Below are positions 3,001 through 44,160 of a stretch of DNA of 64,000 nucleotides, in pieces; within the stretch, counting starts at the first letter, position 1; every line of letters starts with the position of its first letter. Below the pieces are notes generated by a model. That model did not search any database. It worked only from the letters and a program-made list of their open reading frames with translations, and was not told the DNA's origin. A program made the translations under genes and the position numbers. This DNA is from Erythrobasidium yunnanense (taxonomy: Eukaryota > Basidiomycota > Cystobasidiomycetes > Erythrobasidiales > Erythrobasidiaceae): the NCBI GenBank assembly GCA_001600175.1, contig BCJC01000006.1, positions 1,565,968-1,629,967 of the forward strand, given 5' to 3'.

Positions 3001-5647
3001 GTACCCTGCACAACTGATTCTGATCGTTTCCAGCACACCACAAGCCTTAAGCTGAGACAGCACAAGAGGCGGCTCAAACTCCCATGGCGCCTTCGCTTCG
3101 TTCGGCTTGATGCATCGAATGTAGTGTGCATTGGTAGAATCGATAGTCTCCTTCAGATTGATGAGAGATGCCTTGAAGATAGATCCAAGCGTAGGCTTCC
3201 GGACTTGTCCTCCAGCCTTCTTGCCAGGCTTTGCAGCGGTCGCATCTACATTCGCAGCTGCATCTGGCTTACCAGCTGAAGAATGAGATAATGCACGGTC
3301 GATGACTTCCTTCAAGAATGTATTTGAGCTGGAGTTGAGCATTGCCAGATGCTCATCGGGTACAGTATCTCTGTTCTTCTCCAAGAAGCCTTCGATCTCG
3401 TATGTAACATCGTGTGCGTAGTGTGCGATAGTGAAAGCGGTGGTGCCGAAACGTGGCTTCTTGAAGATGGTCTTGTTGGCAGGCTTGTCGAGTTGAGTGT
3501 AGAGCTTCTGAATAAGCGTAGAGTCGGATCCAGCTGGTAACCTAGATTCTTCGTCCAGAAGAGCGAGGATACCCAGCTTGCCCTCGATTACATCGATTGT
3601 TGGCTGGTTGTCGCTGAAGTCGATGAATTTCCAGTTAATCTGCTCTGCTAGGTATTCTTCCTGTTCAAGCTTGAAAACATGAGCATTGAACTCTTGTTGC
3701 AGCTGTTCGTTGGCGTAGTTGATGCAGAACTGCTCGAACGAATTCTTCTCTGTATATCATGGTAAATCAGCATGATTTACATCGCACCGACGATGGGCGT
3801 GACGCACTGAAATGCTCAAAACCGTAGATATCGAGAACACCAATAAAGCTGACTGATTCCGCTGCGTTCTTCGCCAGCGACTCATTGACGATGCTGACTA
3901 GCCAGTCGAACAGGCAAGCATAGATGAATTTGGCGACTGAGTCTCTAACGACTATCGCTTGTGCGGCAGTAAGAGCGGTAACGATCTTCTCTGACCGAGT
4001 CGTTATCTGCTTCTTGACTGTCCATTTCTTGTACTCGTTCGCATCGATGCCTAGGAGGTGCACGACATACTTCATATGCGGATCGTCTTCGGCGATCATA
4101 GCTTCCTTGCGAGTTTCCTTGATTTCGATGTTTCCGATATGCAGCAGGGCTCCCAGCAGCTTGAAGATCTGGAGACGAGTTTGGCTTGTAATACCGACCG
4201 TATCGAGCGCCTTCTGTGTGTATTCGAATTCTTTCGCATCATCGACGCCTGGAATAATCTTGGCTGAGGCGCCGCCCTGGTTCAAAAAGTGGAACTTGGA
4301 GGCGTCCTCGAGGCCGATTTCGCGAAGGTCGGAAGAAGGAAGGCCGGCCAGCAGCTGGTAGAAGATGTGGTAGTTCCGCTCAGTTTCAGGCTGGTAGACC
4401 AGTCGACTCCGCTCGAGAAGGTATGTACGGATTCGGGCTCCAATGATCGTTTGCGTCTTGTCGAAAAGGATCTGAGAACAGCCAAGTCAGCACAATACAG
4501 TGGTCTGGGAAGAAGCTGTATGTTCGTACCTCGATATACTTGCCGAAGCGAGATGAGTTGTCGTTGCGCGTCGTCTTTGCGTTACCGAAGGCTTCCATGA
4601 TGGGATTGGTCGCCAGAATCTGTCTTTCGACTTCGGACATGCCATCCTTGTCCTTTGACGTCTGCACAAATCGTGCTTCAGTAAAAACGCATTCCAGCAA
4701 TGATTCGCTAGCCCACCTTTCTTCGACCTGGTCTTTCTGGGTCGTCGACGGTTGCAAAGTACCGCATGATGTACTTTGCTGACACTGTCTTTCCTGCACC
4801 AGATTCTCCAGAGACGATAATGGTCTGATTGCGCTGATCTCGGATCATGCACCGGTATGCATCTTCTGCGATGGCGAAGAGATGCGGCTCGAGCTGGCGG
4901 TCGCTATGCGGTCAGTACATTACCATTCCTGCATTCATTATATCTGCTACGTACGTCTCCTTTACGCTTTCCAGCATACGCTTGCACGAGATTCGGCTCA
5001 TACAGAGGCACCGCCGCGAAAGGGTTGACTGCGATAAGCACGATACCAGAGTAGGTCTAGAGCGGTTGGAATGAGTATACGCTGCCATCGAAGCGATATA
5101 TTGAGTCGCAGCCTCACGTAGATCTGACCCTTGTCGGCATAACGCGTCTTGATAGAGTTGAGGACACCTCCTTCGTTCAAGTAGGATAGATTTGTAAGAT
5201 CTTCCGTTGCTTCGAGCATGGGCGGGTTGCGCAAGGCCGGTAGTGTCGCATATTGAGAATTCTCGAGTTCGTCAATAGTAGCCGTGAATGCGTGTTCCTG
5301 CGATAATGAAAGTCATTTTAGCATATGAAGTAGCTCATGATTACACAAGGTATGATCCCAGATCGCTGCGCAGTCTGTAGCGACCGTGCGAAGTTGGGAT
5401 TGATAAGTCGGTCTCAACGCTCACCCTGCCGCGGTCATCGACGAAGACGAGCTTGACGTCCTTATCTGAGATGTTGCTGCTGTCCAGAGTAGCCGAGATC
5501 CATCCCTCATCTGCGATGTTTCACACCAATATTTCGATGTTTGAGCGCGTTTGTTGGGCCAACTTGACGCCTGCTGTGCTGACCTGAATCCTGAAACCAG
5601 GCCTTGATTCCCTTCTGAGTGAACGGCGCAAGAGCTGAGGAGGCCAT
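94..5647 (-). CDS. MYO2: Class V myosin heavy chain (Myo2/Myo52 type)
   Basis: Actin-based motor that carries vesicles, vacuoles and other cargo to sites of growth. The gene has about a dozen exons and encodes roughly 1,600 residues. The first exon (5585-5647, starting MASSALAP) and the second give the short SH3-like opening (KAWFQDS, then EGWISATL). The motor follows, with the P-loop GESGAGKT near 4800, switch [11 protein letters not shown] near 4540 and switch [10 protein letters not shown] near 3820. Several IQ motifs for calmodulin or light chains lie at about 2250-2750 (for example [14 protein letters not shown]), then a coiled coil at about 1850-2215. The C-terminal cargo-binding DIL domain lies in the exons below about 1500. 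Motor, IQ, coil and DIL in this order are diagnostic of class V. The start is the first ATG before the conserved tryptophan motif. The stop is at 94; nothing is seen in the 93 bases beyond it. The symbol is by family, since fungi differ in naming. Confidence 0.95.
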
Positions 5648-25417: not shown

Positions 25418-28400
25418 ATGGCTATCCTATCGATATCCATACCTAGCTCTGCGCGGCGCTCCGTTTTCGCCCTGAGTGCTCCACATACTGCTCTGGCACA
25501 ACCTGCGACTGCCAGCGTTGCGACACCAGCGGCTATCTCAGAACACGGCCATCATGGCATCCTGGAAGCTGCTCCTCCTTTACCCGATGCAGGCGATATC
25601 TCTAGAGCCTTATCGGGGTTAGCAAGTCTCGACGAGCTCTTCGCTGCCCTAAAGACCAGGTAGGGCCATCTATCCTGTATTTGCTCATCTCACTGATCTG
25701 TGCCTTCAGGAATGCTCATGACCGACAGATCGCAGCGGAGCACTTCCACAATGCCTTACTTCGCGACCGGGATCTTGCAGCCAATACTAGCAACCTCAAG
25801 GGATTACCAGGAAACGCTGCTTCAATACATATGCCCGACTCGCTTCAAGCCAAGCTGCTTCAATACGCCTCTTCTGATGACGTTCAAGCTAAATGGGCGG
25901 TAGTGACAGCGGTCGGAGAAACCCTGAAGATACACCCACCTGACGCAAAGTCGGCTGCTCGGCTGGCTCTTGCCTTGTTCAAGGTCATTCCCTGCGCTGA
26001 TTCAGCAGTCATGAGGGAGGCCGCTGTGTTGTTCGCAGATCTGGCACCGCTGGAAGGTATGCACGCCCTGGCCCATACACAGTGTGCGCAAGCTTTGGAA
26101 TGGCTCGAAGGTATGTGTTGCTCGTACTCGTACAAGTCCAACCTTCACATTGCTGACAGTCTGCTGTAGACTCTCGAAGCGAGCGCAAGCGACTCGGTGC
26201 AGTCTTGCTGCTGACTGAGCTCATGAAGCGCCCCGAGTGCCGCAAGGTCCTCAACAATCACGCACCACGAGCTCTCGACGACCTCTGGGACCACGCAATG
26301 ACGGATGCAAACCTCGAGATACGACAAGCTGGTCAATCAGCACTTGAAGCTTGCATAATCGCACTGCCTCCTCAAATGAGCGTACTACATAAGGAGGATC
26401 TGATGAGAATGGCTCTTCTACCATTATCATCGATCGCAAGCTCCGCCTCTAGTTTGCATGGTGCAGTCTTGACGTGCACTGTTCTGGTTTCAAGCACGCA
26501 AGAAGGAGAAGACTTCGTATCACCGAGCTGGAAACTCGTCATGAAGGTCAAAGAGAGGGACAGCCTCGTATCAGCTGCCTGCATGGACTACCTTAGCGTA
26601 GCGGCGAAAGTGGACAAGGCTGTGTTCAGTTCAGAGATGCTACATCCAACCATGAGATGGCTTGTAGAAGCCATCAAGCGGGAGAAGGACCAAATTGCAG
26701 GTGAATTGCCGGATAAAAGCGATTGTGACCCGAATTGACGAGCGAATACCCAGCTTTCGATGCTCTGGCGAAGATATTGGCTGTCACGCCTCGGAAGGCC
26801 GTAGCAGCATACCAGGAATCCATCATCGTCGCTTTCCACGTCTGTCTTACGCAACAACGACGATCCCCGGCCCTCTCGGATGCCCTACTCAATACCATCG
26901 GTGGTCTAGCACAAGCATTTGGATCTTCTATCGAGCATGCGATCACACTTGCTCTGGACGCTATTTTCGCTGATGGACTTTCTGATCACTTGGTCGAAGC
27001 CTTGGCAAAGGTGCTTGAACACGTACCTGGGCTGGCATACTTCGTCCGCATCAAGCTACTGGACGCCATAGCCACGATCCTTTCAGGCAAGACCTTCCAA
27101 GAGTTTGCGATGCCCGTACCTTCTGCTCGCCGGGCTTCCGTTGCAGTCATAACAGAAACGCCAAAGCCGCCAAGTATGCATCGCAGGCGGACATCGAGCT
27201 TGCTAGGCCGCACAGCTCGCGGTCGATCAATATCTCCCCAGAGGCCGATGGTACCCACGATTCCTGAAGATGGTCCAGATCTGTCCGAGTTGGCTTTACG
27301 GACTCTGGCAACTTTTGATTTCTCAGACCAGCCTCTCCTTCTCTCCTTCTTACAGCAGCACGTACTGCCCTTCTGCACGTCAGAACAACCCAGTCTGAGG
27401 CGGGCAGCTATCGAAGCCTGCCATGGTTATCTTACCAAGAATGGTCTTTTGACCAGCCAGGAACATCGAACGTTCCCCGTCCGCGAAACGATCCAGACTA
27501 TCGTGTTTGCCGGTGTCTCTGACAGCAACGCCGAGATACGAGAGCTGGCCATCACCCGTTTGGATCACCGCTTTGACAGTTATCTAGTATGTACAGGCAT
27601 CGTCCCATCGATCAATGCAGCTGATGGATAATGCCTCTACAACAGCGCGAGTCTATGTTCGCGCACATGCTGATCTTTGGCATGAACGATGCGTCAATAC
27701 GCGTTAGACTTGCGATCATCCGCGTTTTGGGTAGAATGTATGTCTTCCATCAGTCCATATCTTCAACTATTGCTGATATCAAGACATGCTAGAGCGGACC
27801 AAGCCAAAGCTAGCGTGTTACCGGCTTTGCGCAACGAGCTTGCCGGACTGCTAACAACGCTCGATCAGACCAAGAACAGGCAAGTCCCCTCTTCTCAGCA
27901 AAGTTGCAGCAACTAAGCTCACACAAACCCACAGTCATGCTCGTATGCAGGTCATGACCGTTCTCAAGGAAATAATGGATGCGGCTCCGCCTCTCGCCGA
28001 TCTCTATTCAGCACCAATCACTAACGTGCTGTTAGATCTTCTCCGTAACACAGAGGCCGAAGACGTCACCGTGTTGGGCTTGGAGGTGGCTAGACAGTTA
28101 GCCAAGTATGCGGGCAACTCGCTCCGCTCGAACGCCATGGACTTTGTGGAACTAGCCTGCACAGCTCTTCGAGATCAAGCTTCGGTGCAGAAGCGCAGGA
28201 CAGCTGTCCTCGCGCTCACAGAGATCGTAGCGCAGACCGCTTGTATGGGAGAGATGGTGGAGCATAGGGACGATTACATAGACGCCCTCATCGGACACCT
28301 GGCTTTGGAAACGGACCCTGCCTCCCGTCGCGAGGTTGTCCGAGCTCTAGGCACCGTTGGCGCTCTCAAACCAGCCAACTCAGCATTGGACATCGCTGAT

Positions 28401-31400
28401 AAGCTGGTACAAGAATTGGCCGACTCGCCCGAGGCGGCAAGCAGTGCTGACCACCTAGAGGCGGGACTCATACCGTTGGACGAGGGTGTCATCAGAGTCC
28501 GGGTACCGCTATATATCGCAGACTGGGTGCTGGGTCAGCTGATGGAGATCTGGAATGAGCCTTCTCTGAAGCTTCACCATGCAAGAGTGAGCGCACTGTA
28601 TACCGATGCCTACTGTCCATGCTGACCTCCTATGCGCACAGGTCTTAGATGCCATCGTGCGCATCTTCCGCCACGAAGCAAGTCGGAAGAGGTCCTGGCA
28701 CTACACAAGTCGTATCATCACGAGACTCATTGCCGCCTTGAATGAGCCATCAAGTGATAATGTTACGACCTGCTTCCATATATCGGCACTGGGCACACTG
28801 GCTCAGATTGTCGAATGGCGTGTCGAAGAGCATACTGCGACAATATTGGCAATCCTCCTACGCGTAAGTCATGATTGAATAACAAAGCGTTATAGCTTAT
28901 TTCTTTCTGCAGCACTGGGACGAAGGCTTGGAGCCTAGCAATTGTATCGTGGATGCCATCGCCTCCTTGGCTATAGCTCTCCGCGGAGAATTTCAGAAGT
29001 ATCTGTCGATAGTCATTCCACGGATGACAGCGGCCCTCCTCGATGCGGCCACTCCAGATGGTACCGCCGCTGCAATCTTACACTTCATGCGCCAAGCAGG
29101 ATCAGAAATACGAGAGTGGACATCTTCGGTTGTTCCAGCGGTTCTCTTCGCGTGCGAGCACTACTCTACTGGTACTCGATCCTTGGCGATGCATGTCTTG
29201 CTCTCTTTGGCTAGCGCTACCTACCTCGGAAGCCATCTATCCCGAGTAATGGCTACTCTCGTGCAGTTGACGAAACAATCGGGCATATCGAGAGCTGCAA
29301 TCGAGACCCTTTGCGGCTTAGTGAAAGAGTGTGGTGCCGAGGCATTACCCTTCGCCTTGATGTATGAACGACAGCTTGGCTTCAGCATCCAGGAACATCC
29401 ATTCTTCCAGGCTTACGCAGAAGGCAGTGCTGCTGAGGTCGATACAAGGTGAATATGTGATGCTATAATTTAGCTTGTCATGCTAACAAGATGCTTCATC
29501 CCAGCGCCGCTCTCGTGGGCGAAGTCAACGAGATTGCCGAAGCTTTGGATTCCGATGCAATCGTTTCCGCCCTGAATGCACCTTTCGATGATGCAGAATG
29601 GCCACATTGGGTGAACAAGCTATGTGACAAGATGACAAAGGCTACCAATAACCACCATATACGCGCAACAGCTGCAGTAGCGGAAGCATATCCGCCTCTA
29701 CAGCGCAAACTGCTCAATTACGCCCTTTATAGCGCATGGGTGGATCTTACAAAGCAGCAAAAACAGGACATTTGCGATAACCTCCATAATTTGCTATCCA
29801 TCGACGCAACTGCTGAAGCGCACGATACCATACTTCAGTAAGCTTGGTAGACAACCAGCAGAACGCTCGTGACTTACTATAGTCCCCCTGCAGCCTTCTT
29901 GACTTTATGAGCCGCATGGGCGTAGATCTGAAGATTCCAGCGTACCTCTGCAAGGAAGTGGCCCTCCGTCGGCGGTTCCTTCACCGCGCTTGCAGATATG
30001 CCGAATTGGAGTACGAGGAGACGCAAGAGGAGTCCGTCATAAACGACCTGCTTCGCATTCATCAGAGCTTCTCGAATCGCGAAAATGATGATGCCCTCGG
30101 GCTTCTTCAGCACGTCACCTTCACAACGGGTAACGAGTGGGCCGAACTTGGCCAGTGGCATTCCAACCTTCAAGCATATGATGAAATGCTGCAGAACGAG
30201 CCGTATCAGCCGGAAGCTGTGAAAGGGGTCATGAGGGTATGTTAGCAGCTGACTATCTGCCGACGTCGCTAAGACGCTAATCTTCATGCTAGTGCCTGCA
30301 TGCTCTGCAAGAGTGGGACGTTTTACTAGACTTCGCCGACCAGAAGCTGCCCAACGTGGCATCAGACATCGAGATGACAGTTGCTCCGTTGCTTGCAAGA
30401 GCAGCATGGAGTGCCTCTAACCCTACGAAGATGCTTCAGGCAATCGATCACATGCAGCAACCGCTACGAGCTTGGTACTCTGCTGTAAGCTGTCAGATCG
30501 CAGGTAACCATAGCGAAGCCCTCTTCCACATCGACGAGGCGCGAGGAATGCTTTGTGGCGAACTAGGTGGGCGAAACTCGACACCAAGACGGCTTTCACC
30601 GCTGACAGCTTGTCTGGTTGTGATGCAGTCCAAGTGGGGCGAACGCGAACGGGGAGGGCTTACGACTTATTGACCCGCGCTCACCTACTAACGGAGCTAG
30701 AAGAGGCGTACGTTAACCTCGATATCATTCCAACGACCCTGTTCTGATTTTGGCTTGCTTCCAGCGGAACCTATATGCAAGGCACAGGTAACAAAGAGTT
30801 GATTAGGCAGAGGTGGTCATCGAGACTTTCCGCGCTTCAAAAGGAGATCGATGTCTTTGGCAGATGCTTACAAGTGCACCTCATAGCTGTGCCGCCTTCG
30901 GAGGACGTCAAGAACATGGTCAAGTACGCTAGACTCTGCCGAAAAGCCGAAAGGAAAGATCTTGCGTACAAGATTCAAGCGAACACAATGCAAAGCGAAG
31001 GATGCGACCCCTTGGACTTGTCTGTTATTGTAAGTGGAGTCTTCTGGCAGCAAGTTGTCCTTTCGTTGATCCCTCTGTACAGGCAGAGAATGAATTTCCC
31101 GGTCTCACGCTCGAACGCTGCCGATTAGCTTACGAGTTCGGGCACAAGGAGAAAGCTAGAGAAGGCTTACGCGATCTAGTGTGTCGCCTGAGTGACAGGC
31201 TCGAAGCGCTGACGAATCTTGGCAAGAAGAGCAAGAAGGTGCTGGACAAGATCAGCGAAGAGAAGGCTCTCTTAGCTCGGACTTTCCATTCTCTTGGGGA
31301 CTATTCCAGAGGCGAAGACGCGGTAAGCCGCATCCTGTCAGACTTCATTAAAGCTGTACTGAACTCGTATGGCTTCTCAATAGACAAGACTGTCCGAAGC

Positions 31401-34031
31401 CCAGATCTGCTACGAAAGGTCAACCGACCTACATCCATACATCAAAGGTTTCAGGAAGCTGGCCAATACCAATCTCGCTATCATCGATGTGCTCGAGAGC
31501 TCGAAGCCGCCAGGCTACAATGAAGCTGTGATCACTTTGGCGGTTAGCACTGTTGATGGTCAGTGCATGGTATACATACGCTCCTAGTCGTATTGACGCT
31601 TTGTTACTGCACTCTAGCCTACTCGCAAATCCTGCAGCGGGCTCCTTCTTTCCCGTTACAAGACGTTTTAGGACTGCTTACTACCATCTTCAAGTTTGGC
31701 CAGCACAGAGACGTTGCAATGGCCGCCGAACGTGCCTTCAATACTCTTTCCATAGACTGCTATTTGGAAGCAGTCCCGCAGCTTACTGCTCAGCTCAACT
31801 ACCCTTCGGCCCGACTTCAGCCTATTATAGAACAGCACATGCAGCGTCTGGCTCGAGCACATCCCCACACGCTCCTAGCATCTCTGACGGCGGTCACTCA
31901 ATATCCATCTCAGCCAAGAGCAGTCGTTGCGAAGCGCTTAGTCAATGTCATGCGTTTATACGATGATACTTTGGTCAGCGAAGCCATGTTGCTGAGCGAA
32001 GAGCTTATGCGAACAGCCATTACATGGGAAGAGAAGTGCTGTCACTGCGTAGAGGCATCGGCAAAGTACATCTTCGGTGAAGGCAAGCGAAGTGAGTCCG
32101 AAGCGTCATAGTCTGAACTAGAGTACTCAGGCTGAATAATCCGCTTAGATCCAGCAGGTCTTGTCGCTGCGATGGAAGAGCTTTGCAAGAGTTTTGAGAA
32201 TCCAGAGACCGTTGGCGAACACGAATTCACCGTCAAATACGGCGAGACTTTGCGGGTTGCTCGGGGTGAGCTATCTCAAAGATATATTTACGAATGTATC
32301 GCTAAAAACCAAAAACCGCTCATTCAGACCTCGGGCGTAGATGCTTGCAGACTGGCTCCGAGAAAGACTTGGCCAACTTATGGAGAAAGTGGCATACGAT
32401 CCACAAGATCTGTTCGCAAGGCATCAAGTACGTGCATAATTCGAAGTCACAATGCTGGTCATAGCTGAAGCCATCTACAGGGATAGTCCGCTTCATCTCG
32501 AGCTGTGCGATGTTTCACCTCGTCTAGCTGCCGCCCGGAACATGTCACTTTCGGTTCCTGGAACATACATTAGGCATGGCGGCGAAGATATACGTATCAT
32601 GGAAATCAACAGATCTCTAGAGATCCTGTCGTCCAAGCAAAGACCTCGGAAACTGACTATGAAGGGCTCAGATGGCAAGACGTATCGCTTCTTATTGAAG
32701 CCGAGAGAGGACCTGCGACTGGACGAACGTTGCATGCAGCTTGTACGTTTCACAACTGCCGACCCTCCTAGATACGCTTACTGACATACTTCAACAGTTC
32801 ACTCTGGTGAACTCTCTGCTACAAAGCGACCAAGATGCGAGCAAGCGTCATCTACGCATTGTGCGCTTCGCGGTCGTCCCGCTCAGCCACAATGCCGGGT
32901 TACTATCTTGGTTTGAGCGAGGAGACACGCTTCAAGCTATTGTACGACAGCATCGACGTCTCTTCAACACGCCAGTCGATCTTGAACTCAAGTACGCTCT
33001 GCTTCATGGCTGACCTGAGCCATACTGATCCATCTGAAAATAGGCTCCAAGCGCAATTCGCACCTGGTATCACGAAAGGCACGCTAAGCAGTCTACAGTT
33101 AGTCGAAGTGTTCGAGCTAGCTCTCGATGCTACGAAAGGCGATGAACTCTCATCTATCCTTTGGCGAAAGAGCGCTTCTGCTGCTGGATATCTCGAAAGA
33201 AGGACTGCTTATTCCCGTTCAATGGCTACGAACTCCATGGTCGGACACATCCTCGGTCTAGGAGAGTAAGTGATGGTCACAGCTCGTGCGAGGCATTCTG
33301 ATCTGATGCTCCGTTTGACAGCCGCCATCCCTCGAACGCTCTGCAAGACAGAGTGACTGGCGAGATAGTTCACGTAGACTTTGGCGACTGCTTCCAGGCT
33401 GCTCAAGAACGAGGTTAGTCATTATATTCGCAACTACCTAGCCTTTGCTGACCACGCGGCCGACCCAGACTCCTTCCCTGAACGGTTCCCCTTCCGCCTT
33501 ACACGACAGCTCATACGAGCGATGGGACCTACCGGTGTTGAGGGTCATTTCCGGCTCTGTTCACAGAACGTTATGCGTCTACTTCGGGAGAACAAAGAAT
33601 CCATCGAGGCCGTTTTCTCTGCATTCGTGCACGATCCGCTCATTCAGCATTTAGTTCTCCATCCTCGACAGCTCGAATACGATGACATCCTACACATCCC
33701 CACTGAGAACGACGAGACTGCTCAAATCGGCACTCCCTCAGCACGGTTCTCGCAAAGACGGAGGAAGGTGGATCATAATATGGATAAACTGGTCACGCAG
33801 CTCAGTCCGAGAGCTCAGAGAGTAGTGGCGAGAGTCAGGGAGAAGTTGGAAGGAACAGAATTTGGGTCGGAGGAAGCGGTGCCGGTCGATGAACAGGTCT
33901 CGAAATTGATCCTGCAGGCGACGGATGTGTTTGCGCTGTCGAGCGCGTATCAGGGGTGGTAAGTGTCTCTCAAGGAACGAGTTGCCGAAGCAGAGGGACT
34001 GATACTTGGCTACAGGTGCGCTTTCTGGTGA
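25418..34031 (+). CDS. TOR: TOR serine/threonine kinase (PIKK family), divergent FRB
   Basis: Catalytic subunit of TOR complexes, controlling growth in response to nutrients. The gene has some 25 exons. The order is N-terminal HEAT repeats (25418 to about 29500), FAT domain (about 29500-31950), FRB (about 32040-32420), PI3K-like kinase domain (about 32480-33700) and C-terminal FATC ([25 protein letters not shown], split by an intron before CAFW). Kinase motifs are complete: [15 protein letters not shown], catalytic lysine in FLLK, GDRHPSN (formed across the intron at about 33267-33321) and VDFGDCF. Unusual points: the region after the lysine reads [11 protein letters not shown] where TOR normally has KGHEDLRQDER, and the FRB rapamycin-contact positions are largely changed. 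The protein would be about 2,350 residues. TGA is at 34029-34031. Whether it is the only TOR or a second, TOR-like copy cannot be told from this window. Confidence 0.93.
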
Positions 34032-34149
34032 TTCAGCTACGCATCGCATTCGGTTCATACTTGAACATAGCACATGGCAGTCTTCTGTACCACCTAGTGT
34101 CGTGTTCGCCATAGATCTCGTTGTACCGTGCTCCTGCCTCGATATTGTA

Positions 34150-34931
34150 CTACCGCCTTGACGGACTGCGACTTCTGTCTCTGGTGGCATACGGATCTTT
34201 CGCCCTATCCCTGTCTCTTCTTCTCGAGCTCGAGTCTGTACTTCTATGCGAGTAGTCGTCCTTGCCGTATCTCGAGCGGCTCTTCTCGCTTTTGGATTCA
34301 CTAGCTATACCCGCGGTGTATTTATTTTCAGCACTCCCGCTTGCTGACCCAGCACTTGCAAAGCTAATCTTATCTCTCTTCCCTCTTTCCTGCGCTTTCT
34401 GTCGCTGTTCATTCTGCGATTTCTGCTTCTCTGCTATCGCATCTGCAAAAGATTCTTTGCCAAGTCCTTCTGCTGATGTCCAGACATCCTTCGGGAAGGC
34501 AGATAAGGACTCGTTCACTGCTACGAAGTCTACGAGTTTCGAAAGAATGGAAGGGTTGCGGAAGGACTTGTTGCTCTGCAAAGTTGCGTTGAAGCGGATG
34601 TTCTGAGCTCGAAGAGCGTGGAAATGCTTGAGCTTGGCCTGTGTCCAGATGCATTAGTATGTTCTCAACAAGATGTATTGAGATAGCGCACAGCTACTGT
34701 TGGATCAGGCAGGACGTCTGTAGAAGGAGGAGGTATGCCATATTCTGCAAGACCCCATGGCTTTTCTACGGGAGCAGGCTCGTCCAGAGTGACAGCGGAA
34801 GTAGAAGCTACAGGAGCTGCCTGCTCGTCCGTCTCGTCGACGTGCATGCGCTGCAAAGCTTGACGTTCTTCGTTTAGGCGTTCTTCAATCTCCAGCCGTC
34901 GAGCTTGGAGTGCAATTTCAGCATTGTGCAT
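34150..34931 (-). CDS. SAP30BP/HCNGP-family nuclear protein
   Basis: Homologue of human SAP30BP (HCNGP), a nuclear protein linked to transcription control and to splicing with RBM17. Diagnostic text: WGLAEYGIPPPSTDVLPDPTVA in one exon, then after a short intron (about 34633-34690) KLKHFHALRAQNIRFNATLQ and SNKSFRNPSILSKLVDFVAV with FPKDVWTS. The tail is Ser/Arg/Asp-rich (RRRDRDRAKDPYATRDRSRS), as in many splicing proteins. The stop is at 34150. The frame stays open upstream of the ATG at 34929-34931 to about 35025, so the true start is probably further up or in another exon; the acidic opening usual for the family was not located. The gene converges on TOR (118 bases between stops) and diverges from GPI8. 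Confidence 0.8.
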
Positions 34932-39378: not shown

Positions 39379-40127
39379 TTAACGGCGTCCTCTGGGTGGT
39401 CCACCGACTAGAAAGTCGGAAAAGAAAGGAAAGAACACATCGCATCAGCAAGCGGTTCTCTCTTTCGCGCAGACAGCAGTACTGATGATTGAGCACACTC
39501 ACTTCCTCTTCCTCTTCCTCTCCCACCTCTCCCTCTATCCATTCCTCTTCCACCTCTAGCCGCCGCTCCTTCTTTCTTCTTCTTTGGTTTGGGCGCATCG
39601 TCTACCAGGAGTGTATCTAGTGGTAATGAGTCCGGTAGGATGTAGTATCGTATATTGCTTCCTCTTATGCTCAGACTGTCGAGTGATTGGGGGCTTCTGT
39701 TCCGGACTGTCATTTTGACCTGCGAGACGACGAGCGAAGCGAAGCGAGTCAGTGGAGGAAAGCTTGAGACGGAGTCAAGTAGATGTACTGATTTCAAATG
39801 CGTGTTCATGGCCATGTCCACAGCTAGCAGCATCCAAGATGTCAGTGTTCTCTGATTTCTCTAGCCAGACGAGATACGGGCCGCACCAGTGATTGTTCCA
39901 TGGACCTGTGTCCCGTTCTTGAGTTCGATAGTGACAGACTCGTTGTTGAGCTTCATCCTGGAAATGACACAGCAGACATCAGCTTGATATCGCTCGTCCA
40001 TTCTGCCAGTCCCAGAACTCACAAGAATCTGCGAGACCAGCGTCCAGCAAGGGAGAGCGAGCGAGCAGAGTCAGCCATGGTGTATTGGATGTAGTCCAGT
40101 GTATGCTGCCCACCTGATGAGCTTCAT
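39379..40127 (-). CDS. SMD1: Small nuclear ribonucleoprotein SmD1
   Basis: Core Sm protein of spliceosomal snRNPs. The exons read [62 protein letters not shown] and onward through [19 protein letters not shown] to an RGG tail ([17 protein letters not shown]) and GGPPRGRR. Sm1 and Sm2 motifs are intact, and the RG tail is the target of arginine methylation in this family. About 120 residues and six exons. Exon 1 is 14 nt (40114-40127) and exon 2 is only 6 nt (40023-40028); this is required for the universally conserved RFLMKL. The start ATG is 40125-40127 and the stop TAA is 39379-39381. Confidence 0.96.
40023..40028 (-). other. 6-nt microexon of SmD1
   Basis: ATTCTT on the minus strand, flanked by ...CTCGCAG and GTGAGT.... 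It lies between an 85-nt intron (40029-40113) and a 65-nt intron (39958-40022). With it, AG|ATTCTT|G ATG gives R-F-L-M, as in SmD1 proteins generally; without it the protein reads MKLIRMKLNN. Because it is 6 nt, skipping keeps the frame and only removes Phe-Leu. Confidence 0.88.

Positions 40128-41351: not shown

Positions 41352-44160
<2,809 letters not shown>

Follow-up and report, generated by a model that had tools for sequence, protein, structure and literature searches.

A probable 6-nt microexon in the SmD1 gene of the basidiomycete Erythrobasidium yunnanense

The SmD1 gene of Erythrobasidium yunnanense raises the question of whether a block of only six nucleotides, ATTCTT, lying in the 156-nt interval between the first coding exon and the next longer stretch of coding sequence, is an exon in its own right. 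We addressed it in the window, i.e. the whole 64,000-nt stretch of DNA that was analysed, and in the surrounding genome. Agreement between homology and ab initio prediction indicates that ATTCTT, at 40028-40023 on the minus strand, is very probably a genuine and most likely constitutive 6-nt microexon of a single-copy SmD1 gene. By its functional-looking flanking splice sites, this predicted exon qualifies as a member of the microexon class (internal exons of at most 30 nt).

The locus is carried by contig C6 of a genome of 10 contigs and 20.9 Mb. The gene model, on the minus strand, comprises six exons that make up 372 nt with the stop codon and translate without interruption. Coding exon 1 (40114-40127; ATGAAGCTCATCAG), taken from the sequence and the gene model, encodes MKLI and the letters AG of an Arg codon. 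It is followed by intron 1 (40029-40113, 85 nt, phase 2), which runs from GTGGGC to TCGCAG and carries the branch motif CTGAC; the minus-strand letters 5' of ATTCTT, on the side of the acceptor CGCAG, are TCTCGCAG. The predicted microexon (40023-40028) completes the Arg codon and gives Phe plus the TT of Leu. Intron 2 (39958-40022, 65 nt, phase 2) runs from GTGAGT to TTCCAG with the branch motif CTGAT, and after its acceptor TTTCCAG the minus strand reads GATGAAGCTCAACAAC from 39957, where exon 3 (39887-39957, placed by homology and the model) begins with GATGAAGCTC. A transcript with ATTCTT spliced in would carry ...ATCAGATTCTTGATG... at this point. The initial annotation had placed ATTCTT at these coordinates between a good acceptor and a good donor, GTGAGT; both the position and the sites were confirmed, the latter being of median strength or better.

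The remainder of the gene consists of intron 3 (39824-39886, 63 nt, phase 1, GTGCGG to TGCTAG), exon 4 (39789-39823, placed by homology), intron 4 (39720-39788, 69 nt, phase 0, also placed by homology, with a donor GTACAT of 3.1 bits), exon 5 (39503-39719), which starts VKMTVRNRS and includes most of the RG-rich tail, intron 5 (39408-39502, 95 nt, phase 1, GTGAGT to TTCTAG), and exon 6 (39379-39407), which encodes GGPPRGRR and the stop. Retention of intron 4 (39788-39720, minus strand) would leave the frame open and give a longer protein, the gene finder reading through it in frame. A six-frame search found SmD1 in a single copy in the genome: three of the four matches with E values up to 10 are its own exons, and the fourth, at 35% identity, overlaps a match of the LSM family. 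A pattern scan of viral contigs returned 71 matches, with no relative among them.

The identity of the gene is clear from a search of the PDB with the predicted protein minus its last nine residues. SmD1 chains were matched from residue 1 with a best E value of 7e-51, whereas the best chain not named SmD1, a 'putative' snRNP protein, reached 2e-14, and the next, SmD3, 1e-10. The predicted product therefore matches SmD1 better than SmD3 or LSm proteins, in agreement with the assignment made initially. The best five of 36 distinct PDB sequences all start with MKLVRFLMKL, as in 1b34 and others, versus MKLIRFLMKL here, and the alignments start at residue 1. Three of these five chains have an identical N-terminal sequence, so that they amount to three independent readings; we take three of the five to be human, and the others to be from S. 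pombe and C. elegans.

The N-terminal RFLMKL block is obtained only with the microexon included. When Phe-Leu was left out of the query, a two-residue gap opened exactly at 'fl' in all of the best five PDB alignments. At a cut-off of 1e-12 for the comparison, the removal cost between 9.1 and 11.5 bits in each of the 11 PDB sequences common to both searches, and one further chain that passes this cut-off with Phe-Leu dropped off the list without it.

Splice paths from the ATG at 40127 were also enumerated, allowing one or two introns, GT or GC as donor, and a minimum intron length of 35 nt. Fifteen open two-intron paths contain MKLNNES. Two of these yield Phe-Leu before MKLNN, both via ATTCTT; the one that uses a GC donor loses Leu-Ile-Arg, and a single path among the 15, namely inclusion of ATTCTT, relies on GT donors alone. 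The 11 listed one-intron paths with MKLNN all fail to supply Phe-Leu. The proposal that RFLMKL is reached only through the 6-nt exon is borne out in this space, where inclusion is the sole GT-AG route, and the enumerated paths contained no alternative exon supplying Phe-Leu, the counter-evidence that the initial annotation had envisaged.

We trained a gene finder, with no use of homology, on the window and about 200 kb upstream of it on the contig (263,967 bp in all); it converged on 117 genes, SmD1 being one of them, and 516 introns with a median length of 58 nt. The signals it learned (donor GT[AG]NG[TC], branch CTGA[TC], acceptor [CT]AG) represent a plausible fungal pattern, and the intron density and donor pattern would suit a basidiomycete. 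An earlier collection of introns, based on the codon bias of flanking 90-nt stretches, was dropped, as it was noisy and gave a weak donor consensus. For SmD1, the ab initio exons are 40127-40114, 40028-40023, 39957-39887, 39823-39503, and 39407-39379, i.e. the 6-nt exon is recovered exactly and intron 4, whose donor is very weak, is missed. The gene finder also produced no model over the L006 match, nor on the two short oriented SmD1 and SmD3-like loci L029 and L031, and is therefore not a complete annotator.

Ranked among the 516 introns, intron 1 stands at percentile 51 for its donor, 86 for its acceptor and 46 for its branch motif, and intron 2 at percentiles 62, 87 and 71, respectively. 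The branch motifs lie 43 nt (CTGAC, intron 1) and 22 nt (CTGAT, intron 2) upstream of the acceptors, and in intron 1 the tract between CTGAC and the acceptor is free of AG, which fits selection of the first AG. The model scores the inclusion path at 6.3 bits and skipping at 0.65, i.e. 5.7 bits apart. Intron 1 contributes just 1.0 bit in total, because it is long (36 of the 516 introns measure at least 85 nt) and its branch motif is distant (43 nt, the 95th percentile being 42).

How easily such a block could arise by chance was assessed by dinucleotide shuffling of the 156-nt interval, with both introns held to at least 38 nt. The 200,000 shuffles contained 25,871 AG-N6-GT blocks, 26 of which spell R-F-L and two of which equal both splice sites, while none does both. 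Across both strands of the real sequence (2 x 263,967 nt), one AG-N6-GT is equally strong on both sides, a count to be read with the proviso that its place was not identified and that the SmD1 block satisfies this two-site threshold by construction. Among the 39 model introns of at least 82 nt, 11 AG-N6-GT blocks occur and none is equally good. A second control of 20,000 shuffles considered any in-frame exon of 3 to 30 nt: the best such exon attains the observed 5.7-bit gain in 17 shuffles, in none of which it is 6 nt long, and some spurious exon outscores skipping in 343. The ab initio call by itself is good, but not beyond chance if many long introns are screened. We accept the microexon because ab initio prediction and homology agree.

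These data also bear on other ways of reading the interval. It might be spliced as a regulated cassette, in which skipping, giving SmD1 without Phe-Leu, or retention of intron 2 would tune the amount or activity of the protein. Both flanking introns are in phase 2, so that skipping keeps the frame, as had been pointed out initially, and a transcript that retained intron 2 would meet a TGA immediately behind Phe-Leu. There are also parallels for such control in the literature, in the autoregulation of human SNRPB (SmB) through an alternative exon (PMC4109005) and in a glucose-dependent microexon switch in Trichoderma (PMC11121469). We nevertheless consider this improbable: no donor or acceptor here falls below median strength, skipping requires a 156-nt intron, which is long here (19 of the 516 introns are that long) and lower-scoring, and Phe-Leu is present in all of the best five SmD1 alignments. 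The second isoform lacking Phe-Leu that was suggested initially accordingly stands as far as the reading frame goes, but its skip intron is long, scores 5.7 bits worse, and would cost residues kept in five alignments.

Still less credible, in our view, is the reading in which there is no microexon at all and the 156 nt form a single intron, or a twin intron excised stepwise, leaving SmD1 without Phe-Leu. The path 40113-39958 is indeed open and in frame, giving MKLIRMKLNN, and twin introns are known in fungi (PMC6616335). However, this would delete two residues found in five SmD1 alignments and leave unexplained a 6-nt block that combines two good sites with the right coding, a combination absent from the 200,000 shuffles. 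Least likely of all is that Phe-Leu comes from another source, for instance through use of a GC donor or from some other exon. The SmF gene offers a precedent, since a GC-AG intron seems to close a two-residue gap there (see below), but both SmD1 paths that yield Phe-Leu use ATTCTT within the space enumerated, which starts at the ATG at 40127 and covers one or two introns of at least 35 nt whose donors are GT or GC. The same GC-AG remedy was sought directly for SmD1, where it fails by path enumeration.

These observations most likely reflect a constitutive microexon whose two flanking introns are excised in succession. Short introns are the setting in which pairing of splice sites across introns is thought to occur, and 400 of the 516 introns in our set are at most 65 nt long. 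Both introns flanking ATTCTT could be recognised in this way, by intron definition, and would then be removed in order, since a distance of 6 nt leaves hardly any room for two sets of splicing factors. After excision of either intron, the six nucleotides would be part of an exon of normal size, and the second splice would be an ordinary one. The initial annotation had seen an obstacle in the need to recognise splice sites across almost no exon. This objection belongs to exon definition, and with introns as short as those found here pairing across introns may suffice. The exon probably originated because two introns came to lie near each other in a genome rich in introns, rather than for the sake of a second isoform.

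Very short exons are already known in basidiomycetes, and the SmD1 case adds to a known type. Published accounts describe exons 'as small as 1 bp' in the RNA-seq-based annotation of Cryptococcus neoformans (PMC3990503), which likewise has an intron-dense fungal genome, a shortest exon of 6 bp in P450 genes of Phanerochaete (PMC1184071), and minimum exons in bglA of 5 bp in Sirobasidium magnum and 6 bp in Rhodotorula minuta (PMC9142197). The P450 and bglA exons belong to enzyme genes, whereas SmD1 is a core spliceosome gene. The view that an exon of this size is a special oddity here is not supported, given these 1-6 bp examples and the other homology-supported microexons of the same genome described below.

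Outside basidiomycetes, constitutive ultra-short exons include a 9-nt exon of potato invertase, a 6-nt exon of chicken cTNT and a 1-nt exon of Arabidopsis APC11, for which an ordered model based on intron definition is given; in the plant exons the flanking introns leave in an ordered or recursive manner, ordered removal being reported for the 9-nt exon and proposed for the 1-nt Arabidopsis exon (PMC4674806). As described there, these plant or animal exons were tested in minigenes, whereas the SmD1 microexon is predicted from the DNA sequence. A further fungal microexon is that of Xlr2 of Trichoderma virens, where conditional inclusion changes the DNA-binding domain (PMC11121469), while the SmD1 sequence bears no sign of regulation. 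Another candidate precedent for a 6-nt exon, PMC4624585, was set aside, as the passage in question concerns 6 nt of exon 2 in a construct and no microexon. Among open-access papers, none combined SmD1 with microexons, and titles and abstract openings listed no microexon in SmD1.

If the microexon is genuine, SmD1 would be made correctly only when the splicing machinery joins across a 6-nt exon, making a core splicing protein dependent on the machinery to which it belongs. It would also be a useful test substrate for ordered intron removal in a short-intron organism, and an annotation that ignores such exons would lose two near-invariant residues of SmD1. Were inclusion regulated, the result would be a self-reporting loop; we saw no sign of such regulation in the sequence.

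SmD1 is not the only gene of this genome with predicted exons of this kind: 15 of 408 internal exons in the gene models are at most 10 nt long. Three of zero length are doubtful, as is a 2-nt exon in a model that seems to fuse separate genes. Homology was consulted for four more genes. On contig C1, the SmF gene (L005, G000:C1:4723305-4726406) is predicted to have two adjacent microexons of 10 nt (1783-1792) and 11 nt (1872-1882). They encode CNN and VLW, which make up most of the Sm2 motif, and this stretch is gap-free in the best three of 32 PDB matches. The first SmF intron (L005, about 1603-1656) appears by eye to be of the GC-AG type, with a donor GCGGGT after ...AACGTGCAG; the ab initio model is two residues short, and the GC-AG intron would restore MNVQLANTEE. 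A further reading, highly improbable in our estimation, would see the 6-nt exon of SmD1 and the adjacent 10- and 11-nt exons in the Sm2 motif of SmF as hard-to-splice exons that serve as built-in sensors of spliceosome capacity. If they were, a shortage of snRNPs would lead to mis-splicing, and this in turn to an altered output of Sm proteins.

An Obg-type GTPase gene, about 176 kb to the left of the window start, has a predicted 9-nt exon, GGAAAGGAG, on the plus strand of contig C6 at about 1390351-1390359 (L011, about 4351-4359). It encodes the Gly-Lys-Gly of the conserved AGKGGDG, and the best four of six matches have no gap there. Within the window, a GH13 alpha-glucosidase-like gene (42170-44160, plus strand) has a predicted 11-nt exon, AGGCTGGAATT, at 43276-43286. 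This exon encodes GWN before ENHDQ, and the best four of 44 alignments match GWN or GW, although three of these four carry a one-residue gap just before it. These homology-supported microexons suggest that the fungus handles such exons. A GH26-like protein for which the model predicts four tiny exons, of 13, 12, 8 and 4 nt, had no match in the PDB search.

The zero-length exons mark AG/GT points at which the model cuts a long intron in two, as at about 34015 (plus strand) and 21703 (minus strand) of the window, and may represent artefacts of the model, sites of recursive splicing or twin introns. Finally, the plus strand of the window holds a large predicted gene of 25 exons at 25418-34161, whose product, judging from its sequence motifs, presumably resembles a PI3K-related kinase.
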